A stretch of DNA of 64,000 bases from an uncultured Marinococcus sp. Lineage in GTDB: Bacteria; Bacillota; Bacilli; Bacillales; Marinococcaceae. Shown here one piece after another: positions 928-14,977 of this stretch. Position 1 is the stretch's first letter. Every line of letters starts with the position of its first letter. Both the position numbers and the translations under genes were made by a program. The stretch is from NCBI RefSeq assembly GCF_947493875.1, contig NZ_CANLSU010000003.1, positions 1 to 64,000 of the forward strand, read 5' to 3'. The notes beneath the pieces are model-generated. The model saw only the letters and a program-made list of their open reading frames with translations, had not been told where the DNA came from and made no database searches.

Positions 928-1674
928 TTATTGTTGGGCAATCCCATGTCTTTCCCGCATGGACTGCTCGCCATCAAGGAGAATGGAATAAGAGTCATGG
1001 ACAATGCGGTCTAAAATCGCATCGGCCAGCGTCCCTTCTCCGATTTTTTCATGCCATCCCCGAGGATCAAATTGAGAACAAAAAATGGTGGAACTGTTTT
1101 GATGTCTTGATTCGACGATTTCTAATAGATCCCTGGCTTCGCTGTCTTTCAGCGATGTCAGCAGCCACTCATCCAGGATCAGAAGATCCTGCTTGGTATA
1201 CTTTTTCATCACCTTGCGGTATGTGCCCTCTCCCCGGGCAATCGCTAATTCATCCAACAGGTCCGGCAGCCTCGTATACTGCACATGGTAAAATTGTTGG
1301 CAGGCAGCAATGCCAAAGGCGCATCCCAGGTACGTTTTCCCGTTTCCGGAGGCGCCTTTCAAAATAATATTATGTTTTTCTTCGATATATCGCCCCGTCG
1401 CTAAGCGAAGAATCTGCGCTTTATCCAGTTGACGGTCCGGATGGTACTCGATATTTTCGATGGAAGCCTGGGTGTCACGAAATCCAGCATTTTTCATCAA
1501 TCGGTCCAGCTTATTATTTTGTCGGCGTGTCCATTCCATATCCACTAGCAGGGCGAATCGGTCTTCGAAAGAAAGATCCTGGTAGGAGGGGTGTCGTAAC
1601 TGGTCCATATAGGTTTCAGCCATGGCGGTCATGCGCATGTCATTGAGTTTGGAAAGGGTGCTTTCGTTGGTCAT
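928..1674 (-). CDS. istB: IS21-family helper ATPase IstB
   Basis: A 248-residue AAA+ ATPase of the DnaC-like IstB family that helps IstA select target DNA. A P-loop (GASGNGKT, residues 107-114) and Walker B stretch (LLILDEW, about 164-170) are visible, and the length is normal. Its ATG overlaps the istA stop by four bases (ATGA), the usual translational coupling in this family. No frameshift or internal stop is seen. Confidence 0.95.
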   Translation of the reverse strand: MTNESTLSKLNDMRMTAMAETYMDQLRHPSYQDLSFEDRFALLVDMEWTRRQNNKLDRLMKNAGFRDTQASIENIEYHPDRQLDKAQILRLATGRYIEEKHNIILKGASGNGKTYLGCAFGIAACQQFYHVQYTRLPDLLDELAIARGEGTYRKVMKKYTKQDLLILDEWLLTSLKDSEARDLLEIVESRHQNSSTIFCSQFDPRGWHEKIGEGTLADAILDRIVHDSYSILLDGEQSMRERHGIAQQ

Positions 1675-3227
1675 TTGGTTTTCCTCCCGTAATATTCCGG
1701 CCCGCGTGTAAAACCGTAAGGATTCGTCGTTGGTGATTGGGATTCATTTTCTTTGGACATGGCCAGAGGCTGTTTATCGGATCCCGTTTTGAGGACGGTT
1801 TGAACACTTTTCAGGGTGGGGCGCGGCGTATACGTTAAAACGCGTTGACACGCATGTTCCACCCGTTCGACCGAGTAGGTGTCCGCCAGTTTGATCAATC
1901 CCAGGCACGCCCGCAGGGCCTGCTTTTCCACTTGATAGGAAGAAAGTATACGCTGTACGGTCGTGAAACTGTTTGGCCCCGCTTCGTTTCCCCATTTCAA
2001 TACGTAATCCGCATCGAACGTCATGTATTTTTTGTGGTCCGCGGGCATATGATCCATGATGGTGATCACTTGGCCCGTCGGGCCTGTCCGTTTCTTGTGA
2101 GAAGCAATACGGAAATGGTGATAAAACACTTCTACGATGGTCGATGTTACCCGCACATCGACTTGGTGCTTGACGTAATCATAAGGTACCGAGTAGTACA
2201 TTTCTTCAATGAAGATATGATAATCGTATTGCACGGTAGCTTTTTTCCAAGTGGCTAATTCGTATTTAGTCGTTGGGAGGGGCCGAAGAGCGAATTGTTC
2301 TTCTTCCCGAAAGGCCGTCTCCATGCTTCCTTTCTTTTTTTGAAAGGGTCTGGCATTAAAAGCCGTGCGTTTTTCCTGAATAGCCTCATTGAGCTCCGCC
2401 AGGGAAAAGAACGTCTGGTTTCGCAACGAAGCGATAATCCAAGTGGAAATATGTCCCACGGTGCTCTCGGCGCTCGCTTTATCTTTGGGATGCCGAACAC
2501 GTGCCGGGACCACTGTGGTTTGATAATGTTCCGCCATTTCCTGATAACTCGCATGAATCACGGGCTCGTATCGGGAGGCTTTCGTTACCCCCGTTTTTAG
2601 ATTATCGGGCACGATGATGCGGGGAGTACCGCCAAAAAACGTAAACGCTCGCATATGAGCCGCGATCCAATCGGAAGCATCCATCGATAAGCAACCTTCT
2701 ACATACGCGTACTGAGAGCATGGCAGGGCGGCGACAAAAATATACACAGGCATTTCCTCTCCCGTTAGGTGATCGTTCAACGTCATTGTCTGGCCCACCC
2801 AGTCGACTTCCAGTATCTCTCCGGGTTTGCGCTTAATGCGCATCGTCGCTTTGGTTTTACGTGCATACGCATGATAGAACCGGCAAAACTGCCGGTAACT
2901 ATATGGGATTTCATTTTGGGACCGGCAGGTCAGGCAGTATTCATCCCACAACAGAGCAAGGTTGACCCCAGGCTTTGCCAGTTCCTGATGAATCGCTTCG
3001 CAGTCGGGCCTTTTTCGAAAATCCGACGAAGCATGTTTTTCTGGAAACAATAGTTCCTGCAGGTCATGGTCCGTCCACGTAGCTTCCAAAGGCCATGACA
3101 AGTTCTTCGCCTGCGCCCGTTTCAAGACTTCCCTGATCGTGTTTCTCGATGTTGAACAACTGGATGCGATCCCCCGTTGGCTGACTTCCTGGGCATGAAG
3201 TCGAAGTATTTCTCGATACTTAACCAT
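1671..3227 (-). CDS. istA: IS21-family transposase IstA
   Basis: A 518-residue DDE transposase. An N-terminal helix-turn-helix (about residues 15-38) precedes the rve-type catalytic core. The likely catalytic triad is D142 (EVDWVG), D208 (VPDNLK) and E254 (KASAEST). It starts about 150 bases inside the right end of the element and overlaps istB by four bases. Full length and apparently intact. The usual function is cut-and-paste or circle-mediated transposition with short target duplications, which fits the 5-bp duplication here. Confidence 0.96.
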   Translation of the reverse strand: MVKYREILRLHAQEVSQRGIASSCSTSRNTIREVLKRAQAKNLSWPLEATWTDHDLQELLFPEKHASSDFRKRPDCEAIHQELAKPGVNLALLWDEYCLTCRSQNEIPYSYRQFCRFYHAYARKTKATMRIKRKPGEILEVDWVGQTMTLNDHLTGEEMPVYIFVAALPCSQYAYVEGCLSMDASDWIAAHMRAFTFFGGTPRIIVPDNLKTGVTKASRYEPVIHASYQEMAEHYQTTVVPARVRHPKDKASAESTVGHISTWIIASLRNQTFFSLAELNEAIQEKRTAFNARPFQKKKGSMETAFREEEQFALRPLPTTKYELATWKKATVQYDYHIFIEEMYYSVPYDYVKHQVDVRVTSTIVEVFYHHFRIASHKKRTGPTGQVITIMDHMPADHKKYMTFDADYVLKWGNEAGPNSFTTVQRILSSYQVEKQALRACLGLIKLADTYSVERVEHACQRVLTYTPRPTLKSVQTVLKTGSDKQPLAMSKENESQSPTTNPYGFTRGPEYYGRKTK

Positions 3228-3447: not shown

Positions 3448-4080
3448 TTACGCCTCCTCGGCCAGCCGTTGAAATTCAGCCGCAAAGCGGGTAACTTCCT
3501 CATAATCACCGGTTTTGGCCGGTCCGGTAATTGACCCGCCGGCGCCAATCATGATGGCCCCGGCCTGCAGCCATTCCTGCACGTTATCCAGGTCCACACC
3601 GCCGGTTGGCATCAGCTGCAGGTGCGGCAGCGGTCCGCGAAGCGTTTTGATAAAGGAAGGGTCGTACATCTCCCCGGGGAACAGCTTGACCACCTGGGCG
3701 CCGTAGGCGAGTGCTTCGGTCGCTTCCCGGACGGTCATGATACCCGGAAGATACGGCACCGCATAGCGGTTGCAGAGCTTCGCAACATCTTTATCGAAGG
3801 ACGGGCTCACAATAAAGGATGCGCCCCGGATAATCGCCAGCCGGGCCGTTTCGCTGTCGAGCACGGTACCGGCCCCGATAACGGCATCCGGATACTTTTG
3901 CACCAGCGTGCGCAGCACCTCGTCGGCATCCGGCACGGTAAAAGTGACTTCGAGTGTTTTAGAGCCGCCTTTCACGCAGGCATCTGCCGTCTTTACAGCC
4001 TGATCCGGGCTGTCGCCCCGGATCACTACCGCCACTTTGTTTACCATCATTTGATTCAGAATATGAAATACTCTCATCAC
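3448..4080 (-). CDS. eda: KDPG/KHG-type aldolase
   Basis: A 210-residue class I aldolase of the 2-keto-3-deoxy-6-phosphogluconate / 4-hydroxy-2-oxoglutarate family, which splits a 2-keto-3-deoxy acid phosphate into pyruvate and glyceraldehyde 3-phosphate. Visible family residues are R21 (VIRGDS), E44 (LEVTF), T72 (GAGT), the Schiff-base K132 (VKLFP) and PTGG near residue 160. The ATG has AAAGGAGATGCG just upstream. It is divergent from the PRD regulator and PTS operon at 4325, so it may be the last step of that pathway; a role in ordinary hexuronate breakdown is equally possible since no kdgK or uxa genes are nearby. Confidence 0.9.
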   Translation of the reverse strand: MMRVFHILNQMMVNKVAVVIRGDSPDQAVKTADACVKGGSKTLEVTFTVPDADEVLRTLVQKYPDAVIGAGTVLDSETARLAIIRGASFIVSPSFDKDVAKLCNRYAVPYLPGIMTVREATEALAYGAQVVKLFPGEMYDPSFIKTLRGPLPHLQLMPTGGVDLDNVQEWLQAGAIMIGAGGSITGPAKTGDYEEVTRFAAEFQRLAEEA

Positions 4081-4324
4081 GCATCTCCTTTAATATTATT
4101 AGTAGTACCAATGTTTTCGCTGTAATTCCTGCCATCCGTAGAAGGCAACTTTTTCAGCAGTAATAAAATAATACGTAAATACAGAACCCCTTTGCAAGTT
4201 TATCTGCGAAACAATTCTTTTCACGAAACTATTGAAAGCATTTGGTCTTAAGCTTTATGAAGAAAAAAGCTAAGATTATTATTAACAACCAACTGAAATG
4301 TCGCGACGAAAGGAAGGTTGTCTT

Positions 4325-6439
4325 ATGGCGTTGGATCAAAGGAGTTTGGAAATTTTAAGCAATTTGCTGGAAACGGAGGAGCCATTATCCGTTTCTTACC
4401 TGGCAGGGACTTTTCAGGTTTCGGAACGAAGCATTTATCTGGACCTGGATAAAATCAGTCACTGGATGAAGGAAAACCATTTTTCTGGCCTGGGCCATCA
4501 AAGATCCAGGGGATACTTTATCGAGCCGTTCATGAAAAGGGCTATTGCAGAGAGCGGGATACTGTATCAGCAGGAATACATTTATTCACGCGAGGAAAGA
4601 AAATCGGTTATTTACCTTATTTTAATCAGCAGCATAAAGGATAAATGGATGGTAGCTGATTTTCAGGAGCTGTTCCATGTGAGCCGCAACACGGTTTTAG
4701 ATGATGTCCGTCTGCTTCGGGAAGAGCTGAAAGCGTGGTCGTTGTCGATATCCTTTGATTTGACGGAGGGCTATCGCATCAAAGGCTTGGAAAAGGATAA
4801 ACGCCGTAAGATCAGTCATTTGCTGCATTATCATTTTACAGAGGAAGGACGTTTTTCCTTTTCATTCTTCTCCAGGCTCGGGGAATCGATGAATTTTTTG
4901 CAATATTCTGCTGTAAAGCATATTGAAACAGTTATTCATCAGATTGAAGAGGCTGCAGGGATAGAATACACCGATGACATTATTGAACAGCTGAGTGTAC
5001 GTTTTGCTTTCTTCCTTCGTCGTTCTAAGCATGGAAAGCATATACAGCTTGACCCGGCCGAACGGGAAGTTATTGTGAATACGCATCTCTACGAAATATC
5101 AAAACAGCATTTATGGGCGCTTCCGTTACCAGAAGAAACATCGGCACAGGAAGAGATCATCTACTTTACTGCCCATCTTCTGGGTGCACGCACGAATCGT
5201 ATTTCTGAATCGATGTGGGGAGAGCTTGGAAGGTCAGAGCTGTTGGCAGCGATTTATTCTTTCATTCGAGAATTCGAAAAATTCGCACTTGTGGAAATCG
5301 AAGACAAAAGAGGCCTGGCCAACAATCTTTCAATTCACCTGCAGCCGGCCATCTTCCGGATGCGCTACGGCATACAGATGAAGGATAAAGCCCTGGAAAA
5401 AGTAAGAGAAAACTTAAATGATGTATATATTTTAACGAAACAATCCAAGCACGTTTTAGAAACATTCCTGGGACAGGTGATACCGGACGAGGAGACAGCT
5501 TACCTGGCTATGCATTTTGGAAGCTGGCTGCAGCAGGAAGGTCTGGCGCCGGTGAAAAAATGGAAAATGCTGATTGTCTGCCACAGCGGCATCGGCACTT
5601 CTAGGCTGCTGGAGAGTCAGCTGCGTGACCTGCTTTCGGATATCGAAATTATAGATACGGTATCATTGCGGCAGTACCATGACATGGATATCAGCGACGT
5701 TGACTACATTGTCTCTACAATATCGATCCCGGAGCGGGAAATTCCGGTCATTCATGTACCGATAGTTTTTAGCGAAAGGGATAAAGAAATATTGCTCAAC
5801 CAGATTAACGGACGCTGGAAGCAGAAAAGCTTCAGCCGGGAGCAGCAGATGAAGCAGCTGATGAAAATCATTGGCAGGTATGCAAAGATTCAGGATGCTA
5901 AAGGCCTGACAGGTGAATTACAGGGATGGATGCAGCCCGAATTAGTGAGGGTGGCAAATACAAACAAGCAGATTTCTTCATTAGAACATGTTTTGCCGGC
6001 GGGCCATATACGTATGCTTCCTTCAGTAGGTTCATGGCAGGAGGCTGTCGAAGAAGCGTCCGCTCCGCTTTTAGAAAATAATATTATCAGCAGAGAGTAT
6101 GTCACGGCCATGCGTCAGAATTTACTGGAGCAGGGGCCCTATGTAGTAATCGCGCCCGAAATTGCCATGCCGCATGCAAGTTCAGATGCAGGTGTCCATC
6201 AGCTGGGCTTTAGCCTCTTATTGCTTGAAAATCCGGTAGACATGATTGGCAAATCAGTAAAACTTCTTATTGTGGTAGCTTCTCCGGATGACCATAGCCA
6301 TTTAAGAGCACTGGCAGAGCTGAATCAATTACTCTATGATGCCGGGAAACGCGAAGCGTTACTCCATGTCAGGGACCAGGAATCTTTAGTCAGTATAATT
6401 CATCCTGTAGAGCAGGACTCAGCCTCTTCCATATATTAA
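4325..6439 (+). CDS. PRD-type PTS transcriptional regulator (LicR/MtlR-like)
   Basis: A 704-residue activator with N-terminal helix-turn-helix domains (the first about residues 20-42), two PTS-regulation domains (about 180-410), an EIIB-like domain whose cysteine lies in VCHSGIGTSR (about 419), and a C-terminal EIIA-like domain with its histidine in AMPHAS (about 617). Such proteins switch on a PTS operon when their PRDs are phosphorylated by HPr and their EII-like domains are dephosphorylated by the transporter. ATG 4325 has AGGAAGG seven bases upstream; an earlier ATG at 4298 has no comparable site. It opens the operon that runs to 11030, 16 bases before the EIIA gene. Confidence 0.92.
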   Translation: MALDQRSLEILSNLLETEEPLSVSYLAGTFQVSERSIYLDLDKISHWMKENHFSGLGHQRSRGYFIEPFMKRAIAESGILYQQEYIYSREERKSVIYLILISSIKDKWMVADFQELFHVSRNTVLDDVRLLREELKAWSLSISFDLTEGYRIKGLEKDKRRKISHLLHYHFTEEGRFSFSFFSRLGESMNFLQYSAVKHIETVIHQIEEAAGIEYTDDIIEQLSVRFAFFLRRSKHGKHIQLDPAEREVIVNTHLYEISKQHLWALPLPEETSAQEEIIYFTAHLLGARTNRISESMWGELGRSELLAAIYSFIREFEKFALVEIEDKRGLANNLSIHLQPAIFRMRYGIQMKDKALEKVRENLNDVYILTKQSKHVLETFLGQVIPDEETAYLAMHFGSWLQQEGLAPVKKWKMLIVCHSGIGTSRLLESQLRDLLSDIEIIDTVSLRQYHDMDISDVDYIVSTISIPEREIPVIHVPIVFSERDKEILLNQINGRWKQKSFSREQQMKQLMKIIGRYAKIQDAKGLTGELQGWMQPELVRVANTNKQISSLEHVLPAGHIRMLPSVGSWQEAVEEASAPLLENNIISREYVTAMRQNLLEQGPYVVIAPEIAMPHASSDAGVHQLGFSLLLLENPVDMIGKSVKLLIVVASPDDHSHLRALAELNQLLYDAGKREALLHVRDQESLVSIIHPVEQDSASSIY

Positions 6440-6455
6440 TAAATTAGGTGATAGA

Positions 6456-6905
6456 ATGAAATTTTTACCAGAAGAAATGATAAATGTACAGCATCCTGTG
6501 TCTTCACCAGAAGAGGCCATTAGGGCAGCTGGGGATTTGTTGGAAAAGGAAAAAACAATAAGTTCTTCATATAAGCAGGCAATGGTGGAGGCCTATATTT
6601 CCCAGGGGGCGTACTTTGTATTGGCGCCTGGCGTTGCTGTCCCTCATGCAAGGCCGCAGGACGGGGCTTTAGAGTCCGCTATCTCCTTTGTACAGCTGGA
6701 AGAGCCTGTTGTATTTGGTCATTCGACAAATGATCCTGTCACATTGATATTTGGGCTAAGTGCAGCATCGAATGATGAGCATCTTCATATTTTGCAGAAA
6801 TTAACGATGCTTTTAAACGACCCATCAACGATAGAACAGATGAAGGAAGCCCGGAACGTACAGGATATTACAAAAATTATTCAAAGGAGCGGGATGAAGA
6901 AATGA
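6456..6905 (+). CDS. PTS EIIA component, ascorbate (SgaA/UlaC) type
   Basis: A 149-residue EIIA of the mannitol/fructose-like fold. The phosphorylatable histidine is H64 in the motif VPHARP. It passes phosphate from HPr to the EIIB encoded next. Its stop overlaps the EIIB start by four bases. Subtype is inferred from its partners (SgaB-like EIIB, SgaT-like EIIC); the substrate cannot be read from this subunit. Confidence 0.9.
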   Translation: MKFLPEEMINVQHPVSSPEEAIRAAGDLLEKEKTISSSYKQAMVEAYISQGAYFVLAPGVAVPHARPQDGALESAISFVQLEEPVVFGHSTNDPVTLIFGLSAASNDEHLHILQKLTMLLNDPSTIEQMKEARNVQDITKIIQRSGMKK

Positions 6906-7171
6906 AAATTTTAACTGTATGTGGTTTAGGACAAGGTACAAGCCTGATTTTGAAAATGAATGTTGAAACCGCCCTGGAACAGAAAAATATTGATGCTGAT
7001 GTAGAGCATATGGATGTATCGTCTGCATCCGGCGTACAGGCAGATTATATTATTACCAACCAGGAATTAGCCCCCAACTTAGAAGGACATAAAGCAAAGC
7101 TGATAATTGTGCAGAACTATTTTGATCCTAAAGAGATCAGCCAGGCAATTGATGAGCAGATGGAAGTTTAA
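6902..7171 (+). CDS. PTS EIIB component, ascorbate (SgaB/UlaB) type
   Basis: An 89-residue cytosolic EIIB of the lactose/ascorbate fold. The phosphocysteine is C7 in VCGLGQGTS, the characteristic P-loop-like start of the SgaB family. It is translationally coupled to the EIIA gene by a 4-bp overlap, and the EIIC gene follows after 29 bases. Confidence 0.9.
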   Translation: MKILTVCGLGQGTSLILKMNVETALEQKNIDADVEHMDVSSASGVQADYIITNQELAPNLEGHKAKLIIVQNYFDPKEISQAIDEQMEV

Positions 7172-7200
7172 TTTAGAGTGAACGCATAGGGGGATTAAGC

Positions 7201-8502
7201 ATGGAATTTGTGTTTTGGTTAGCAGACAATTTCTTTGGTACGCCAGCTATACTTATTGGGTTAATTGTATTAATCGGATTGCTTCTGCAAAAAAAGAGAG
7301 CCAATCAGGTTATCACTGGGACGTTCAAAGCGATCATCGGCTTTCTGATCATCACAGCCGGTGCGGGTATAATTACAGGCTCACTCGAAGTATTCGAGCC
7401 GTTATGGGCAGAAGTGTTTGGTTTAGATTACGCTTCCATCTCCAACTACATGGGGCAGGAAACGTTTAATGCAGAGTTTGGCAGCGTAGTTACACTTTCG
7501 ATGACGTTCGGCTTTTTGATCAACGTATTGCTCGCACGATTTACACCGTTAAAATATATTTATTTAACCGGACATATGATGTTTTGGACCTCGACGATAT
7601 TTGCCGGAATCATTGTTCATGCATCTGGCGGAAATGCGAATATGCTCGGCATGGTGGCATTTTTATCTATCGTTCTTGGGATTTATTGGACAGTGCAGCC
7701 GGCTATTGTTCAGCCTTTCATGAGAAAGATTATGGGTAATAATGAAGTAGCTCTTGGGCATACAAGCGCTTCTGTGGGGCTATTATCTGCCCTTGCTGGA
7801 AAGCTGGTCGGTAAGAATTCACAAAATACGGAAGACGTTAAATTGCCGAAAGGGCTTGAGTTTTTAAGGGATTCCAACGTTATTACAGCGCTTACCATGG
7901 CCCTTCTGTTTGTATCTGGTGCTATTATCATTACTCTCCGGAACAGCCCGGGTTCGGAAGAACTGGAGGCGATGGCTGGAAGTCAGAGCTTTATCGTTTA
8001 CGCCCTTATTCAGTCATTTACGTTCGCAGCCGGTATTGCTGTCGTTCTGACGGGGGTCAGAATGTTTATCGGGGAAATCGTACCCGCGTTCCGTGGTATA
8101 GCGACCAAAATCGTACCTGGAGCAAAGCCGGCCCTGGACAACCCGATTGTCTTTCCTTCCGCACCGAACGCAGTGATCGTAGGATTTATTGGAGCCTTTT
8201 TGGGAGCCCTCGTCTGGTTGGCGGTTCTCGGTAACACCGTGAGTTATATATTTGTTCCAACAATGATCGTTTTATTTTTCCACGGCGCGACAGCAGGGGT
8301 ATTTGGCAACATTACCGGAGGCATCAGAGGAGCATTTATGGGCGGACTTATAACGGCTACTGTTGTGGCCTGGGGCCAGTTCGTTATGGTGCGTATGCTG
8401 CTGCCGACTACCGTTCCGGATACAGCAATGTGGGCTGCAGATTCTGATATGTTCATCCTTGGACCGATCGTGTACTGGCTTGCTCATTTATTCTTTGGAT
8501 AA
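7201..8502 (+). CDS. PTS EIIC component, SgaT/UlaA family
   Basis: A 433-residue polytopic membrane permease of the ascorbate PTS family (about ten hydrophobic segments; LLQKKRANQVITGTFK after the first helix is typical). It would import and, with EIIB, phosphorylate the substrate. A GGGGG ribosome binding site precedes the ATG. The downstream genes are not the ulaDEF ascorbate genes, so L-ascorbate itself is doubtful as the substrate. Confidence 0.92.
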   Translation: MEFVFWLADNFFGTPAILIGLIVLIGLLLQKKRANQVITGTFKAIIGFLIITAGAGIITGSLEVFEPLWAEVFGLDYASISNYMGQETFNAEFGSVVTLSMTFGFLINVLLARFTPLKYIYLTGHMMFWTSTIFAGIIVHASGGNANMLGMVAFLSIVLGIYWTVQPAIVQPFMRKIMGNNEVALGHTSASVGLLSALAGKLVGKNSQNTEDVKLPKGLEFLRDSNVITALTMALLFVSGAIIITLRNSPGSEELEAMAGSQSFIVYALIQSFTFAAGIAVVLTGVRMFIGEIVPAFRGIATKIVPGAKPALDNPIVFPSAPNAVIVGFIGAFLGALVWLAVLGNTVSYIFVPTMIVLFFHGATAGVFGNITGGIRGAFMGGLITATVVAWGQFVMVRMLLPTTVPDTAMWAADSDMFILGPIVYWLAHLFFG

Positions 8503-8543
8503 TAATGCTGGTATAGTCTACTAAACAGGAAGGTGAAAGAATA

Positions 8544-9536
8544 ATGCCGTTCGTTCGAACGCTTCACGGAGATATATCTCCAGAGGAAATGAAAATTACT
8601 TATGCACATGAGCATATTGTCTGCCGGCCGCCCTATTGGGTGGAGAAAAAGGAATCAGATTTGCTGTTGGATGATAAAGAAAAATCACTGTTGGATGTAC
8701 AGGATTTCGTAGACCTTGGCGGCAAAACCATTGTTGATGCCACCGCTGTGGATTATGGCAGAGACGTTGCGGCTGTCGCAGACATTGCTGAACGTCTTTC
8801 CATGCACATTATAGGCACCGCCGGGTTTAATAAAAGCTTTCTATGGGATGCGGCTATTCCCGGCCATCTTCAGAAGAAGCTGGGCGAATTTAGAAGCTAC
8901 GGTGATTGGATCGAGCATACCTCTATCCAGGGGCTCACAAACCATGTAATAGCAGAGGTGGAACAGGGGCTGGAAGACACCAGCCACCGGGCAGGGCAGG
9001 TGAAATTCGGTACCGGCTACAACCGTATTACGCCGCTGGAGGAGAAAACGATCCGTGCAGTAGCGCGGGCTCATCATGAAACGGGGGCGCCTGTACATTC
9101 CCATACTGAAGTAGGCACGATGGCTTTAGAGCAAATTGAGCTGCTGAAAAAAGAAGACGTTCCTCTGGACAGAGTGAGCTTTGGCCATATGGATCGGAAC
9201 CCTGATCCTTATTACCACGAGCAGGTAGCGAAGACAGGCGCTTTCCTGAGCTTTGATGGCATTGGGAAAATCAAATATGCGCCAGAGAGCACGAGGCTGC
9301 ATTGTATTTTTAAGCTAGTGGAAAAAGGATATGCTTCTCAAATTCTGATTAGCGGGGATACAGCGAGGAAGTCCTATTACAGACACTACGATTACGGCCC
9401 GGGCCTGGCCTATATTTTAGAAAGCTGGGTGCCTCGTTTTATCGATGAGGCAGACCAGCTCGGTCTGGATGGCGAAAATTTAATTCATCAGTTTTTCGTC
9501 GAAAATCCAGCCAAGTGCATGACTTTTCACCGGTAA
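8544..9536 (+). CDS. phosphotriesterase-family (cog1735) hydrolase, probable sugar-lactone phosphate lactonase
   Basis: A 330-residue binuclear-metal amidohydrolase. The metal and bridging residues are visible in order: H22 and H24 (AHEHI), K154 (VKFGTGYN), H185 or H187 (VHSHTE), H215 (FGHMDRN) and D272 (SGDTAR). Some cog1735 members are lactonases acting on pentonolactone 5-phosphates, which would suit a PTS product; that assignment is inference. It lies 41 bases after the EIIC gene with GGAAGGTGA upstream, and the creatininase-family gene follows 17 bases later. Confidence 0.85.
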   Translation: MPFVRTLHGDISPEEMKITYAHEHIVCRPPYWVEKKESDLLLDDKEKSLLDVQDFVDLGGKTIVDATAVDYGRDVAAVADIAERLSMHIIGTAGFNKSFLWDAAIPGHLQKKLGEFRSYGDWIEHTSIQGLTNHVIAEVEQGLEDTSHRAGQVKFGTGYNRITPLEEKTIRAVARAHHETGAPVHSHTEVGTMALEQIELLKKEDVPLDRVSFGHMDRNPDPYYHEQVAKTGAFLSFDGIGKIKYAPESTRLHCIFKLVEKGYASQILISGDTARKSYYRHYDYGPGLAYILESWVPRFIDEADQLGLDGENLIHQFFVENPAKCMTFHR

Positions 9537-9553
9537 TTAGGAGGAAACCAACT

Positions 9554-10309
9554 ATGGAAATTGCATTTGCACGGTCTACAGAAATAAAAGAAAAGATTGA
9601 AGAACGCCCGGCAGCTGTATTACCGGTAGGGGCAGTAGAAGCCCACGGGGCCCATCTGCCGCTTGGCACAGATAATATATTGGCAGAACGGCTGACCAAA
9701 CGGCTCGCTGAGGAAACACAAAGCTTTCAGCTGCCACTTTTACCGTACGGTCAGGTGTGGAGCCTGAAGCAGTTCCCCGGATCCATTAGCATCACAAACG
9801 ATGTGCTGATAAATACGATTGTTTCGATTGGTGAAAGTCTTTACCAGCAAGGGTTCTGTATTTTTGCCATCGTAAACGGGCACCTGGGAAATCAGACAGC
9901 TTTAAAAGAAGCGGCGAGAGTGTTATATGACCGTTTTCCGGATCTTCGGGTTTTTTACTTCTTTTATCCAGGACTTAATCAGAAGCGAAAGGAAGTAGAA
10001 GAATCGGCGGTGCATCACTCTTATTTTCACGCCTGTGAAATTGAAACATCCATGATGCGGTACGTGGCGCCTGAGTACGTTGATATGAGCCGGGCCATCG
10101 ACGATCCTCCCCAAATTCCGATCGAAGCAGATTTTACACCGACCCCCTGGGAGGTATTCACCGAAACGGCAGTTCTGGGTGAAGCGACAAAAGCAACGGC
10201 TGAAAAAGGAGAAATCATTATTGAACACGCTTTGCAGCAAATGAAATTGATGATGGACCGTGCCTATGAGGAATGCAGGAAAATAGGAAGGGAGAAAAAA
10301 AATGATTGA
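9554..10309 (+). CDS. creatininase-family metal-dependent amidohydrolase
   Basis: A 251-residue protein with the family metal ligands in VGAVEAHGAHLPLGTD (E29, H31, D40) and the NGHLGN motif near H110, followed by HACEIETS (about 159-166). Family members open cyclic amides or formamides. In this operon it probably hydrolyses an amide or ring in the sugar-derived substrate, but its reaction is unknown. ATG 9554 is chosen because AGGAGG lies directly before it; the in-frame ATG at 9515 is inside the preceding gene. It overlaps the SIS gene by eight bases. Confidence 0.85.
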   Translation: MEIAFARSTEIKEKIEERPAAVLPVGAVEAHGAHLPLGTDNILAERLTKRLAEETQSFQLPLLPYGQVWSLKQFPGSISITNDVLINTIVSIGESLYQQGFCIFAIVNGHLGNQTALKEAARVLYDRFPDLRVFYFFYPGLNQKRKEVEESAVHHSYFHACEIETSMMRYVAPEYVDMSRAIDDPPQIPIEADFTPTPWEVFTETAVLGEATKATAEKGEIIIEHALQQMKLMMDRAYEECRKIGREKKND

Positions 10310-11030
10310 AACGTATTTTAATCGCATCCATCAACAGCTCGAGCAGGTACAAAAGTCGCAAACCGAGCCGATGACTCAGGCAGCTGCCCATATGGCTAAA
10401 TCACTCCAGCAAGGGGGGATTATTCAATTATTTGGGTGCGGACACTCCCATTTACTGACGCTCGATGTGTATTACCGTGCAGGAGGAATGGTGCCTGTTC
10501 AGCCTATCCTCCATGAGCCATTAATGCTTCATGAAGGTGCTCTGCGTTCCTCCGAACTGGAAAGAAAAAATCACTATGCAGAAACGTTTATGAAAGAACA
10601 AACGATCAAACCGGAAGATACAGTGATTGTCATTTCTACTTCTGGAAGAAATCCTGTGCCAGTAGACGTTGCTTTGGAAGCAAAAAAAGCTGAAGCCACA
10701 GTAGTCGTAATTACATCAATCGCCTATTCAAGCAGTCAGCCATCCCGGCATGAACAGGGATATAGGCTGGCTGATGTGGCTGATGTTGTAATCGACAACG
10801 CCGCTCCCCCGGGAGACGCTCTGCTGGAACTGGAGGAGGTGGAGGTGCCGTTTGGTCCCAGCTCCACTGCGGTAGGAGCTACTATTCTCCAAGCTGTGAT
10901 GGCTCAGACGGTCCAGGAGCTTACCAGCTTAGGCATTGATCCACCTGTATTTCTTAGTGGGAATATTGACGGTGCAGATGAGCGAAACAAACGGTTGATT
11001 GAATCCTATAAGGATCGTATAAAATTATAA
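10302..11030 (+). CDS. SIS-domain sugar isomerase/binding protein
   Basis: A 242-residue SIS-domain protein. The phosphosugar-binding signatures are IQLFGCGHSH (about residues 40-49) and VIVISTSGRNPVPVD (about 107-121). SIS proteins isomerise, deaminate or bind phosphorylated sugars, so this is a candidate for the final conversion of the operon's PTS substrate into a central metabolite. It starts inside the end of the creatininase-family gene and ends the operon; a strong terminator follows 31 bases after its stop. Confidence 0.88.
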   Translation: MIETYFNRIHQQLEQVQKSQTEPMTQAAAHMAKSLQQGGIIQLFGCGHSHLLTLDVYYRAGGMVPVQPILHEPLMLHEGALRSSELERKNHYAETFMKEQTIKPEDTVIVISTSGRNPVPVDVALEAKKAEATVVVITSIAYSSSQPSRHEQGYRLADVADVVIDNAAPPGDALLELEEVEVPFGPSSTAVGATILQAVMAQTVQELTSLGIDPPVFLSGNIDGADERNKRLIESYKDRIKL

Positions 11031-11124: not shown

Positions 11125-11129
11125 AATTT

Positions 11130-11158
11130 GTTAGCAAAAATTTTAAATTTTTGCTAAC
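11130..11158. promoter_or_regulatory. perfect 14-bp inverted repeat upstream of gajA
   Basis: GTTAGCAAAAATTT is mirrored exactly around a single T. It ends 61 bases before gajA. It may be an operator or transcript hairpin controlling the Gabija operon; it lacks a GC-rich stem for a good terminator. Confidence 0.5.
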
Positions 11159-11219
11159 ATTTACTTTTAAGGGAATCATAAAATAAAAATTAATAAAATG
11201 ATGAACGGAGCTAGCAAAA

Positions 11220-13295
11220 ATGTATATATCCAAATTAATCATAGAAAATTTCAGAACATTCAATAAAAAAACAGAAATAGAATTTCATGAAGGTACGAAT
11301 GTAATAATTGGTCAAAATAACTCGGGAAAAACTAGCGTTATTAAAGCTTTGCAAATCTTATTCGATACCAACAAGAGTAATAAAATGACTATTGACGATT
11401 TTAATAGAAATATTAATATCGAAGACTTTAAAGAGATTCCTCCAAAAATAACAATTTCAGCTGAATTAAAAGAATCTGACAATGAAGAAGAATTTTCAGA
11501 AGAGCTGGCTACTATTTCTACATGGCTTACTAAATTAGAAAAACCATATAAAGCTCAGATTACTTATGAATTTTTTCTGCCTGAAAAAGAACTAGAATCG
11601 TATAAACAAGGTATTAAAAATTTAAATACTGATGAATATGATAAATTTTGGGAGCAACTTCAAAACAACTATTTGAAAAAATATGTTCAAAAAACATACG
11701 TGGGAGATTCTAAAAATAAGAACCAAGTTGATTCAGAAAGTATTAACAAATTTGATTTTCAATTCTTGACTGCTATAAGAGATGTTGAACGAGATTTGTT
11801 TACTGGAAAAAACGCATTATTAAAAGAAGTGATAGATTTCTTTATGGATTATGATATAAAAGCAGATCAAAGTTTAAGTAAAGAAGAACAAATTAATTTA
11901 ATCTCGAAGAAAAAAAATCATTTTTCTCAAGAAGCTCAAAAACTTATTGAGTCTTTACAGGAAAGAATGCAGGTTGGAAAAGAACATATGCTCAAGTATG
12001 CAGAGGATACAGGAGCCAGCTTTGGTGGAGCAAAACCTTCGTTTGACGGAAAAATGTTAGATACAGAATTATATTCTACGTTAAAACTGGTCGTAGAAAA
12101 TGAAACAGGGGTCAAATTACCAGCGATACATAACGGTCTTGGGTACAACAATTTGATATACATATCTTTATTATTAGCGAAAATGCAAAAAGATTCTTCG
12201 GGGGATTATTTAGGTTCAAATGCAAAAGTCTATTCTATTTTAGCTATTGAAGAACCAGAAGCTCATTTACATCCAAATATGCAAAAAAAATTCTTGAAAT
12301 TTTTACAAGGCAACCAGAATTCTAACGTTAAACAAATTTTTGTTACTTCACACTCCCCGAATATTACTTCGGCTGTTGAATTAGATGATTTAATTGTTTT
12401 ACAAAAAATTGATGGGAATATCCAAGCAGCTTATCCTGGAAAAGTATTCAATGAAGAATGTGAAGAAGATATAAAATCTAAAAATTTTATTAAGCGATTT
12501 ATTGACGTAACTAGGGCCGATATTTTTTTCGCGCAGAACCTTATACTAGTAGAAGGGCTAGCCGAACAGCTGGTAATACCAGCATTCTCAGAAAAAATGA
12601 ATGTTGACTTAGAAGGAAGCCACACTTCAATTATCAATATTGGAGGTAGGTATTTTGATCATTTTTTAAAATTATTTGATGAGGTTAAAAGTTCTTACGC
12701 TATTAACAAAAAAGTTGCGTGTATAACTGATACTGACCCAGTTCGCAAAGCCAAAACAAAGTATTCAAGGTGGAAAAGGTGTTCGCCACTATTTCTCGAT
12801 ATTGAACCGGAAAAGTATGAGTACAAAAAATGTTCAAATAATTTACTATTTGGTAAAAAAAGATTTAAAGAAGAGAAAATTAAGATATTCAATCAAGAAA
12901 TCGGAGAAAGTTCGACTTTTGAGTACGATTTAGTTTTGCATAATGTAAATTCAGAAAGTTTACTAGTAGAATCTCTATCTAATAAAAATGAAATCAAAGC
13001 ACTAATGGAAGCTTATGATGAAAATGTCACTTTTGAAGAAATGGTAAATCTAATCGAAAATAAAGAAATTAAACAAGAGATAGAAAAAATTAAAAATGGA
13101 TCGAAGGAAGAAAATATATTTATAGAAGATGATAAATTAAAAAGAAATTTAATTGCGGATAGATATTTGAGTTCTATTAGTAAGGGAGAAGCTGCGCAAG
13201 AAATAACTTACGTGATATCTTCTGAGAGAATAGAGAAGCAAGATATAGTTATACCAAAATATATTGAAGAGGCGATCGAATGGATTTATCAATAG
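11220..13295 (+). CDS. gajA: Gabija protein GajA, OLD-family ATPase-TOPRIM nuclease
   Basis: A 691-residue protein with an N-terminal ABC-type ATPase (Walker A GQNNSGKT, 31-38; Walker B LAIEEPEAH, about 341-349; H-loop TSHSP, 376-380) and a C-terminal TOPRIM domain (E445 in LVEG; D504 and D506 in TDTD). This is the OLD-family architecture of GajA, the DNA-nicking subunit of Gabija that is released from ATP inhibition during phage infection. It is followed with a 16-base overlap by a UvrD-like helicase gene, the defining Gabija pair. Codon use is strongly A/T-biased compared with both flanks, supporting horizontal transfer. The ribosome binding site (CGGAG) is modest. Confidence 0.92.
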   Translation: MYISKLIIENFRTFNKKTEIEFHEGTNVIIGQNNSGKTSVIKALQILFDTNKSNKMTIDDFNRNINIEDFKEIPPKITISAELKESDNEEEFSEELATISTWLTKLEKPYKAQITYEFFLPEKELESYKQGIKNLNTDEYDKFWEQLQNNYLKKYVQKTYVGDSKNKNQVDSESINKFDFQFLTAIRDVERDLFTGKNALLKEVIDFFMDYDIKADQSLSKEEQINLISKKKNHFSQEAQKLIESLQERMQVGKEHMLKYAEDTGASFGGAKPSFDGKMLDTELYSTLKLVVENETGVKLPAIHNGLGYNNLIYISLLLAKMQKDSSGDYLGSNAKVYSILAIEEPEAHLHPNMQKKFLKFLQGNQNSNVKQIFVTSHSPNITSAVELDDLIVLQKIDGNIQAAYPGKVFNEECEEDIKSKNFIKRFIDVTRADIFFAQNLILVEGLAEQLVIPAFSEKMNVDLEGSHTSIINIGGRYFDHFLKLFDEVKSSYAINKKVACITDTDPVRKAKTKYSRWKRCSPLFLDIEPEKYEYKKCSNNLLFGKKRFKEEKIKIFNQEIGESSTFEYDLVLHNVNSESLLVESLSNKNEIKALMEAYDENVTFEEMVNLIENKEIKQEIEKIKNGSKEENIFIEDDKLKRNLIADRYLSSISKGEAAQEITYVISSERIEKQDIVIPKYIEEAIEWIYQ

Positions 13296-14977
13296 CCATT
13301 AAATTGAAAGACAGTGATAGTTATGTACAAATAGATAATCATAGCAAGCTATATGCAGGTCCTGGGGCCGGAAAAACAAGATTTGTTGTTAACCATACTA
13401 ATAGAATATTAAATAACTCTAAAAGGCTAACTAATATAAAAAAAATTGCTTGTATCACCTATACAAACATCGGAGTGGAATCTATTAGAAGCCGCTTGAA
13501 GCAATCGGAGAATAATGTAGAAGTAAGTACTATTCATAGTTTTCTTTATAAGTACGTGGTGAAGCCATATATCCATTTCCTAAAAGAAGATCATTTTCCA
13601 AGCGAAAAGCTTGATGGACATGACGATATTTATTTAACACATGGTATGCTTGAAGATTTCCTGAAAAGTTCTCAACAGCTTCATCTTCGTCAAAACAAAA
13701 AAGATTTGGCAAATTCGTTAAACAAGCTTATTTGGAAATTCAATAATGGAGAATTGGAACTTGGTTACAACAAAGCATACCAAGGCAAGGTTGGCTCTAC
13801 ATATCATATAAGAAAAGATTCGTATTATTTATACAAGAAAATTTGCTGGGAAAAAGGCTTAATGGGACATGAAGATGTTCTGTATTTTGCCTATCGCTTA
13901 TTATATGAAAATGAAGGGGTTCGAAGAATCATAAGAGCTAAATTTCCATATATTATTTTAGATGAATTTCAAGATACTAGTCCTTTGCAGGCTGAAATAG
14001 TAAAGATTTTAAGCGAAAAGGAAACTATTTTTACAATAGTGGGGGATCCTTGCCAGGCGATTTTTTCCTTTCAAGGTACAGATGAAAATCTTTTTAGTAA
14101 ATTTACTTTAAACAATATGCATGTATATTATTTAAATATTAACCGAAGAAGTACTGAAGAAATAATAAATGTATTAAATCATGTGAGAAAACCAAGTGAA
14201 CTTTATCAAGAAAACCCTGAAAAATTCACTGGGGAAAAACCCACACTTTTAATAGGCGAACAGTCTAAAGCGCATCAAATTGTTAAAAATCAAGTAGATG
14301 AGAATAACGTCTTTATTTTAACTTATAGAAACGATGAAAAAGATATTATTGAATACGGCTTTGAACTATCTGACGATAAGGAATTTGATTTGAAGTATGA
14401 TGATGGCAATAGAGGATGGATGATATATTTTATTATATCTGCAATAGAGTTTGCTAAAAAATCTGAATTTACAGAAGCAATTAAAATGATGAATAAAGCG
14501 TACAAAAACAAAAACCAACTGACTGAGAAAGAAATTTTAGTTAACTTAAAACGATTTTTAAATAACTATGACGCCTACTATAATGAAAGCCTTAAAGACT
14601 TCTATAATAATTTTATTTTCGATCATTATGGAATAAAGCAGCGGATAACAAGCGGAAAAATCAAAGATAAATATGAAGAGGTTCTTTTTAAAGAAGTAGC
14701 CGCAAAAGTTAATGTTACTAATCACGCAAGTAATTATAAAACTATTCATGGTTCAAAAGGAGATGAATTCGATAATGTTTTTTTAACTATCCCAAGCAAA
14801 TCGGCTAGTAACAATTTGGATTTTTTATTAAGTCCTGACATGAAAAAAGAAGAACATAGGGTGTACTATGTAGCGTTAAGTCGTGCTATTAAAAAACTAT
14901 ATATTCATGTAGAAGACCTTAATGAAAAATTGGTACCAAAGATAGAAAAGATAGGGATAAAAATTGAAAGAATATGA
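13280..14977 (+). CDS. gajB: Gabija protein GajB, UvrD-like helicase
   Basis: A 565-residue superfamily 1 helicase. Motif I is GPGAGKT (27-33), motif II DEFQD (about 228), motif III GDPCQAIFSFQG (about 255), followed by late motifs IHGSKGDEF (about 487) and YYVALSRA (about 528). It overlaps gajA by 16 bases, so the two are translated together. In characterised Gabija systems GajB senses DNA ends or single strands and completes an anti-phage complex with GajA. It shares the AT-rich composition of gajA. The UvrD-family assignment is certain; the Gabija assignment rests on the pairing. Confidence 0.92.
   Translation: MDLSIAIKLKDSDSYVQIDNHSKLYAGPGAGKTRFVVNHTNRILNNSKRLTNIKKIACITYTNIGVESIRSRLKQSENNVEVSTIHSFLYKYVVKPYIHFLKEDHFPSEKLDGHDDIYLTHGMLEDFLKSSQQLHLRQNKKDLANSLNKLIWKFNNGELELGYNKAYQGKVGSTYHIRKDSYYLYKKICWEKGLMGHEDVLYFAYRLLYENEGVRRIIRAKFPYIILDEFQDTSPLQAEIVKILSEKETIFTIVGDPCQAIFSFQGTDENLFSKFTLNNMHVYYLNINRRSTEEIINVLNHVRKPSELYQENPEKFTGEKPTLLIGEQSKAHQIVKNQVDENNVFILTYRNDEKDIIEYGFELSDDKEFDLKYDDGNRGWMIYFIISAIEFAKKSEFTEAIKMMNKAYKNKNQLTEKEILVNLKRFLNNYDAYYNESLKDFYNNFIFDHYGIKQRITSGKIKDKYEEVLFKEVAAKVNVTNHASNYKTIHGSKGDEFDNVFLTIPSKSASNNLDFLLSPDMKKEEHRVYYVALSRAIKKLYIHVEDLNEKLVPKIEKIGIKIERI

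Follow-up and report, generated by a model that had tools for sequence, protein, structure and literature searches.

A conserved phosphotransferase-system operon of Bacilli encoding a lactonase-like, a creatininase-family and a NagS-like protein, and its possible role in the catabolism of an N-acylated amino-sugar lactone

We have analysed a window of 64,000 nucleotides of DNA from an uncultured Marinococcus sp. (contig NZ_CANLSU010000003.1, positions 1 to 64,000), in which positions 4298-11030 hold seven open genes, all on the + strand and overlapping or separated by short gaps in the list of open reading frames (ORFs). They encode a PRD-type regulator, the IIA, IIB and IIC proteins of a phosphotransferase system (PTS), a protein of the phosphotriesterase (PTE) family (LAC), a creatininase-family protein (CRE) and a sugar isomerase (SIS) domain protein (SIS). 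The operon is intact and complete, and it is a conserved unit. We tentatively propose, as a reading with somewhat less than an even chance of being correct, that it provides inducible PTS catabolism of an N-acylated amino-sugar lactone, most simply a 2-acetamido-2-deoxy-aldonolactone (i.e. an oxidised N-acetylhexosamine), to 2-keto-3-deoxy-6-phosphogluconate (KDPG). We infer all the reactions, their order and the substrate; what is observed is which genes are present and conserved, that an aldolase recurs, that SIS has amino-sugar genes as neighbours and that active-site residues are kept. The families are known ones in an undescribed combination within a PTS sugar pathway, possibly with a new chemical route.

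A search of the named genome collection with LAC gave 142 related stretches of DNA, the best 80 of which were analysed, so that all counts out of 80 refer to close relatives only. Genes for IIC and CRE were present in all 80 loci, that for SIS in 79 and that for the regulator in 75. Because it recurs in 79-80 of the 80, the gene order is beyond chance, though the loci were picked as the closest LAC matches. The same operon is found across many Bacilli, including Geobacillus, Paenibacillus and Listeria. When 398 evenly drawn genomes of the phylum, that of the window included, were searched (with E up to 1e-45 for LAC, 1e-30 for CRE and 1e-20 for SIS), relatives of LAC were found in 11 genomes and those of CRE in 11; eight genomes were common to both compared with 0.3 expected (hypergeometric 2e-12, ignoring the relatedness of the genomes). 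A SIS relative was present in the same cluster in seven of these eight, while none was found in genome G275. SIS relatives are spread more widely, occurring in 67 of the 398 genomes. An earlier note on this DNA had suggested a neighbourhood search for co-occurrence of the lactonase, creatininase-family and SIS proteins, and the association is borne out by the 79 loci and the eight shared genomes.

The distribution is patchy. Close relatives of CRE (E up to 1e-60) were present in 2 of 61 genomes, that of the window and one of the same order, and were missing from all three genomes of the same genus and all 24 of the same family; LAC was found in 9 of 169 genomes sampled from the order. This patchy presence among relatives leads us to infer that the operon has probably moved laterally.

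The SIS-domain protein (10302-11030, + strand; PF13580 (SIS_2), 154 bits) is 39% identical over 227 positions to NagS (PDB 9eol), the product of SCO4393 in Streptomyces. This lies under the 58.7% identity of Streptomycetaceae orthologues. The protein scores 328 bits with model NF002805, for which the cut-off is 135 bits, and all nine active-site residues of NagS are identical (H53, S54, R64, S91, E94, S119, S121, D179 and N228). For residue counts the window protein was aligned with those matches at E 1e-15 that spanned 80% or more of the query (110 SIS, 88 CRE or 89 LAC), others being dropped; the four essential residues of NagS are kept in 110-111 of the 111 SIS sequences. The NagS report (PMC12680351) describes the enzyme as a relative of MurQ that dehydrates N-acetylglucosamine (GlcNAc)-6-phosphate, yielding a product from which NagA makes an unstable enamine by deacetylation, and that is inhibited competitively by 6-phosphogluconate. 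No dmdR1-like regulator was detected by Pfam among nine proteins scanned around the operon. SIS may be regarded as a candidate NagS-like dehydratase. The plain isomerase role given to it in the earlier note is less likely, since every active-site residue of the dehydratase is present.

Genes for amino-sugar catabolism lie close to a number of SIS relatives. Two of these, 50% and 58% identical to SIS, are each encoded by the last gene of a nagE-nagA-nagB-gntR operon, on plasmids of Priestia and Planococcus. The genome of the window itself has a second SIS copy (G000:C4:23615-24334; L099:9104-9844) that is 59% identical and lies directly 3′ of a nagE-like PTS gene, with relatives of NagA, NagB and GntR a few kilobases beyond. 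In locus L105 the genes for LAC, IIA, IIC, CRE, SIS, NagB and NagA all run in one direction. NagA or NagB is near the SIS relative in 7 of 20 fetched regions taken from the top of the SIS match list (L099, L103, L105 and L113-L116), and is found in 10 of the 80 operon loci, always on the operon strand and six times in the Planococcus group; these are raw counts, taken without a model of chance. The SIS gene of L108 was hidden by a longer false ORF when the frames were picked. In a tree of 52 hand-chosen SIS proteins, including 20 from the 79 close operon loci, the nag-linked copies of Priestia, Planococcus and the window genome branch at three separate points within the main operon clade, and two of the three joins are well supported. 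The SIS proteins of the nag operons in L092 and L103 lie outside that clade. We also note SIS relatives beside ceramidase-family proteins in L106, L107, L109, L112 and L115 (L107 was scanned and has PF04734); four of these loci, L106, L107, L109 and L112, also have MurR-like regulators, and L107 has a GH3 gene. Such pairs of ceramidase-family and SIS proteins are perhaps another amino-sugar amide pathway.

LAC (8544-9536, + strand; PF02126, 165 bits) gives a full-length match to PDB 3pnz at 521 bits, and matches 3msr at 147 bits. It shares the PTE family with the Mycoplasma phospho-furanose lactonases Ms0025 and Mag6390, and R218 (where Lys has become Arg), K244, Y245, R275 and Y278, present in at least 98% of the 90 aligned sequences, align with what we take to be the phosphate ligands of the Mycoplasma lactonase (Lys, Lys, Tyr, Arg and Tyr). 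LAC falls far under the cut-off of the phospho-furanose lactonase model NF045706 (179 versus 630 bits), and its substrate is likely to be larger and nitrogen-bearing. A review (PMC10971088) gives D-xylono- and L-arabino-1,4-lactone-5-phosphate as the lactones opened by the Mycoplasma enzymes. LAC is a candidate phospho-lactonase.

The reading frame of CRE (PF02633, 218 bits) opens with a GTG at 9515 and has its first ATG at 9554, giving a gene at 9554-10309 on the + strand; the residue numbers and queries used here start at base 9551, one codon ahead of the ATG. An AlphaFold2 model, made with an alignment of the window protein and 39 of its 88 collected relatives (40 rows), has a mean pLDDT of 90.5, and its best Foldseek hits are creatininases, with query TM scores of 0.80-0.84 in the first 21 rows. 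From the Pfam match and the model CRE is predicted to have the creatininase fold, which the structural hits restate. E30, H32, D41 and H111, which we take to be the ligands of the core metal site, are present in all 89 sequences. CRE scores under the cut-off of the creatininase model TIGR04448 (132 versus 235 bits). The position aligned with Glu122 of creatininase, a residue whose importance is suggested by mutant entries in the PDB, is Gly in 87 of the 89 sequences, and neither of the positions aligned with W154 and W174 is Trp in the window protein. With Gly in place of Glu122 CRE is therefore not a creatininase. We regard it as a candidate deacylase.

Between the CRE and SIS genes 36 of the 80 loci have an additional gene some 240 codons long, and the three that were scanned match PF07071 (KDGP aldolase) at 168-250 bits. 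In L121, a locus of the phylum sample, an Eda-type aldolase (PF01081, 130 bits) fills this slot instead. Two aldolase families recurring in one place are good evidence for a 2-keto-3-deoxy acid phosphate intermediate, and an aldolase of the KDPG type seems to form part of the system. The earlier note had expected a pathway ending in a phosphosugar; the recurrent aldolase points rather to cleavage of such an intermediate into pyruvate and a triose phosphate. Aldolases are also present in variants of the operon. A second Listeria operon has the order GntR, IIA, IIB, IIC, LAC, Eda-type sequence, CRE, with a LAC that is 40% identical, and stands head to head with an operon of the first kind in 3 of the 80 loci (L063, L072 and L073). 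In an operon on a plasmid of Alicyclobacillus the PTS is replaced by an ABC transporter and an FGGY-type kinase, while LAC, CRE and a KDGP aldolase are kept together; L124 resembles this operon but with an Eda-type aldolase.

Divergent from the regulator of the window operon is a gene for an Eda-type KDPG aldolase (3448-4080, - strand; PF01081, 160 bits), which had no place in the earlier note's account and is a possible partner of the operon. The genome has four PF01081 genes and no match to PF07071; the control genomes have none either, and the same model matches 21 of 43 genomes whose operon has an empty slot. The Eda protein of 3448-4080 is 92% identical to that of another copy in the genome (G000:C3:152059-152631). 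The genes are 89.5% identical in DNA over about 630 bases (window 3449-4078 in BLAST, the match being assigned to L082 by its fit to the coordinates of the Eda ORF there), and because this high identity is confined to the gene a fairly recent duplication or transfer is suggested. By eye, the second copy is flanked by an SDR-like gene and a pfkB-type kinase-like gene. Eda is present in all 43 genomes that have no aldolase in the operon (44 loci, the genome of L076 being left out), which speaks against the idea that operons lacking the aldolase occur in genomes lacking any; of the 43 genomes, 21 have a PF07071 aldolase outside the operon as well. Where the operon has its own aldolase Eda was found in 31 of 36 genomes and was missing from 5 of 36. 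The difference from 43 of 43 (Fisher p 0.017) is a hint, given the kinship among the genomes and the frequency of Eda in general.

The enzyme families are most naturally read as pointing to a phosphorylated substrate with a lactone and a nitrogen-bearing group, as the earlier note had it, and in the pathway that we propose each enzyme would perform one step. The compound would enter through IIABC and be phosphorylated by them, probably at C6, with the PRD regulator sensing its traffic. LAC would then open the ring of the phospho-lactone, and SIS would remove the C3 hydroxyl by β-elimination, as NagS does on GlcNAc-6-phosphate, though these two steps could occur in either order. CRE would remove the acyl group, giving an enamine that would pass to the imine and lose ammonia spontaneously, so that the SIS and CRE steps would parallel those of NagS and NagA. 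A KDPG-type aldolase would cleave the resulting KDPG, or a stereoisomer, into pyruvate and glyceraldehyde-3-phosphate. This aldolase would be the in-operon KDGP aldolase in many relatives, and here an Eda enzyme, perhaps that of the adjacent gene at 3448-4080. The best-known compound of this kind is N-acetylglucosaminic acid (GlcNAc1A), which comes from C1-oxidised chitin.

Several observations weigh against this pathway. According to the NagS report (PMC12680351), homologues of NagS at 26-36% identity show no or negligible dehydration of GlcNAc-6-phosphate. A free aldonate has no carbonyl to acidify C2, making it a poor substrate for metal-free elimination, and so the lactone itself may be the substrate of SIS, which may act before LAC. 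The operon SIS proteins do not form one clade, those of L105, L121, L122 and L123 falling elsewhere in the tree. The slot between CRE and SIS is empty of aldolase in 44 of the 80 close loci, and no aldolase was found in the fetched stretches of the more distant L100, L101, L105, L122 and L123, some of which are at contig edges. The PF07071 proteins of the slot score 151-184 bits with the DgaF-type equivalog of NCBIfam, under its cut-off of 300, and Eda occurs in 8 of 14 control genomes, the genomes not being independent. The enzymes are also separable, since there are variants without SIS in the fetched stretch (the second Listeria operon and the Alicyclobacillus plasmid operon) and others without LAC and CRE (SIS relatives with only a Ula-type PTS in Enterococcus and Carnobacterium). 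Finally, the organism's own chitin-degrading lytic polysaccharide monooxygenase is unsupported as a source of GlcNAc1A; the enzyme is encoded in none of the 9 LAC-bearing genomes of the order and in 12 of the 160 others (169 genomes, apparently the same draw for both counts). A substrate made by other organisms might be scavenged.

The PTS proteins bear on whether the substrate could be ascorbate. IIC (7201-8502, + strand) is of the GAT/UlaA family (PF03611 (EIIC-GAT), 387 bits) and passes the ascorbate model NF006919 with 502 bits, compared with a cut-off of 380. IIA (6456-6905, + strand; PF00359 (PTS_EIIA_2), 108 bits) and the ascorbate-like IIB of lactose/cellobiose fold (6902-7171, + strand; PF02302 (PTS_IIB), 53 bits) score far under the corresponding models, at 83 versus 187 and 40 versus 138 bits respectively. 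A Pfam scan of the operon proteins found none of the ulaD, ulaE, ulaF and ulaG families among them, so that the earlier description of an ascorbate-type PTS without ula enzymes in its operon holds good. With neither these enzymes nor strong IIA and IIB scores, we have rejected plain degradation of ascorbate as the primary explanation. The UlaABC-UlaDEFG pathway does share the family of its IIC and presumably also has a phospho-lactone to open; its catabolic enzymes are absent from the operon and its lactonase has a different fold from that of LAC. A variant pathway for L-ascorbate or isoascorbate, using a non-orthologous lactonase, would fit the IIC score and is nevertheless very improbable. 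Ascorbate offers no nitrogen for CRE, the relatives of SIS go with nag genes, and we know of no route by which ascorbate yields KDPG. Ascorbate is a 2,3-unsaturated 1,4-lactone, and the true substrate might already be unsaturated in this manner, or need just ring opening and deacylation, such as an ascorbate-shaped 2-acylamino-enono-lactone, so that SIS would handle its hydrated form or belong to a side branch. The second Listeria operon and that of Alicyclobacillus, in which LAC, CRE and an aldolase are found with no SIS in the fetched stretch, are what would be expected. We consider this quite unlikely, given that SIS is present in 79 of the 80 close loci and that genomes with a SIS-less operon can also hold a SIS-bearing one, whose SIS could help. 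To our knowledge no abundant natural compound of this type has been described.

Two further explanations concern the chemistry of SIS and CRE. SIS might be a MurQ-like enzyme, a hydratase or an epimerase that releases GlcNAc-6-phosphate for NagA and NagB, with LAC and CRE trimming a lactone and an amide or cyclic amide from, for example, a compound resembling muramic acid. The description of NagS as MurQ-related (PMC12680351) accords with this, as do SIS relatives located in nag operons and in units with only a Ula-type PTS, the closing of the L105 unit by NagB and NagA, the same-strand NagA or NagB of 10 of the 80 loci, and other SIS relatives next to MurR/RpiR-like regulators, with the GH3 gene in L107. 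It would leave the recurrent KDPG-type aldolase of two families without a role, and the variants that lack SIS retain LAC, CRE and the aldolase; we judge it unlikely, though well short of negligible. There is a small chance, lower again, that the substrate is a nitrogen-free sugar lactone, that CRE is a non-amidase hydrolase or a dehydratase and that the nag neighbourhood is incidental. CRE has no equivalent of Glu122, and its family includes IolN, which we take to be a C-C hydrolase and whose model CRE matches at 76 bits (cut-off 245). The repeated linkage of SIS to NagA and NagB in separate lineages would then be unexplained.

The catabolism of an N-acyl amino-sugar lactone that we propose may be compared with known systems. 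A Listeria operon (NZ_LR134400.1, EL207_RS04155-RS04120) has the same genes in the same order, regulator, IIA, IIB, IIC, phosphotriesterase, creatininase, KDGP aldolase and SIS, differing in that its KDGP aldolase fills the slot that is empty here, where an Eda gene lies divergently instead. It is annotated gene by gene, with no pathway assigned. Searches on the gene combination, the lactonase and the Listeria locus names found no pathway in open-licence papers, subscription journals being mostly uncovered. The earlier statement that no pathway of this combination has been described therefore stands for that literature, although the gene set is annotated in Listeria records and the PDB has an entry (3pnz) for a close relative of LAC. 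In a Listeria pan-genome study, lmo1968 and lmo1969, which resemble creatinine amidohydrolase and KDPG aldolase, are lineage-II specific (PMC2996996). They are probably genes of the second Listeria operon.

The oxidative chitin pathway of Pseudoalteromonas, as described in two reports (PMC9537276, PMC12017989), converts GlcNAc1A to 2-keto-3-deoxygluconate (KDG)-6-phosphate. This OngB-OngC-KdgK pathway thus has the same end as predicted here, KDG-6-phosphate from an N-acetylated amino-sugar acid, but it employs an SSS transporter, the deacetylase OngB, the pyridoxal phosphate (PLP)-dependent deaminase OngC and a kinase acting last. Here there are a PTS, a lactonase, a SIS protein and a creatininase-family protein, with phosphorylation first. 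In the D-glucosaminate PTS pathway an ammonia-lyase is followed by DgaF, and operons related to ours carry an aldolase of the NCBIfam family named for DgaF. The glucosaminate pathway also uses PTS import, but with a different PTS family, and it is without the lactonase and creatininase-family protein that the operon here adds. The nine proteins scanned in and beside the operon include no PLP-dependent glucosaminate-6-phosphate ammonia-lyase, a genome-wide search not having been made. It is conceivable, if rather doubtful, that dehydration here is PLP-free, with a phospho-lactonase, a NagS-type SIS dehydratase and an enamide deacylase of creatininase fold turning the N-acyl amino-sugar lactone into KDPG, and that LAC, SIS and CRE replace the deacetylase and PLP-dependent ammonia-lyase or deaminase of the GlcNAc1A and glucosaminate pathways. 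If the proposal were true it would show how Bacilli use oxidised amino sugars and would give functions to three families whose annotation is vague, the phosphotriesterase-related, creatininase-family and SIS-domain proteins. An orphan SIS subfamily would gain a catabolic role, and NagS, a toxicity enzyme of Streptomyces, would be linked to a nutritional pathway that is its likely evolutionary origin.

All the genes and families that the earlier note listed are present, with Pfam and NCBIfam in agreement. The regulator (4325-6439, + strand) has HTH_11, Mga, two PRD and PTS_EIIA_2 domains in Pfam, as well as a IIB-like stretch below threshold. The operon start given previously, at 4325, is a valid ATG but is the second in an ORF that opens at 4298. 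A terminator-like stem-loop with a stem of 14 pairs and a T-rich tail lies 3′ of the last gene (11129-11159, + strand). The 8.2-kb stretch has 11 terminator-like sites compared with a mean of 7.9 in shuffled sequences, a count too near to that of the shuffles, so that the assignment rests on the position and stem length of this site. Promoter-like matches are at the level of chance (13 versus 13.9 expected), and Rfam and tRNA searches of the window returned nothing.

A CutC-family gene (PF03932 in the one scanned) is near the operon in 10 of the 80 loci, including L005, L018, L025, L026 and L033, mostly 3′ of SIS, and also in L100. In 12 of the 80, from Paenibacillus (L045, L048 and L060 among them), a gene 3′ of the operon resembles by eye a second PTS enzyme I. 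Beyond the divergent aldolase, further upstream of the operon, are frames at 928-3227 that we take to be istA and istB of an IS21-like element. Near them, and close to the start of the contig, which is also that of the window, a short frame at 310-651 resembles the N-terminal part of an HTH/PRD regulator, with HTH_11 just under the cut-off; by eye this fragment has no continuation in the frames flanking the insertion sequence. Directly 3′ of the operon (11220-14977, + strand) is a Gabija-type anti-phage pair, for which the best PADLOC matches are GajA at 933 bits and GajB at 638 bits.

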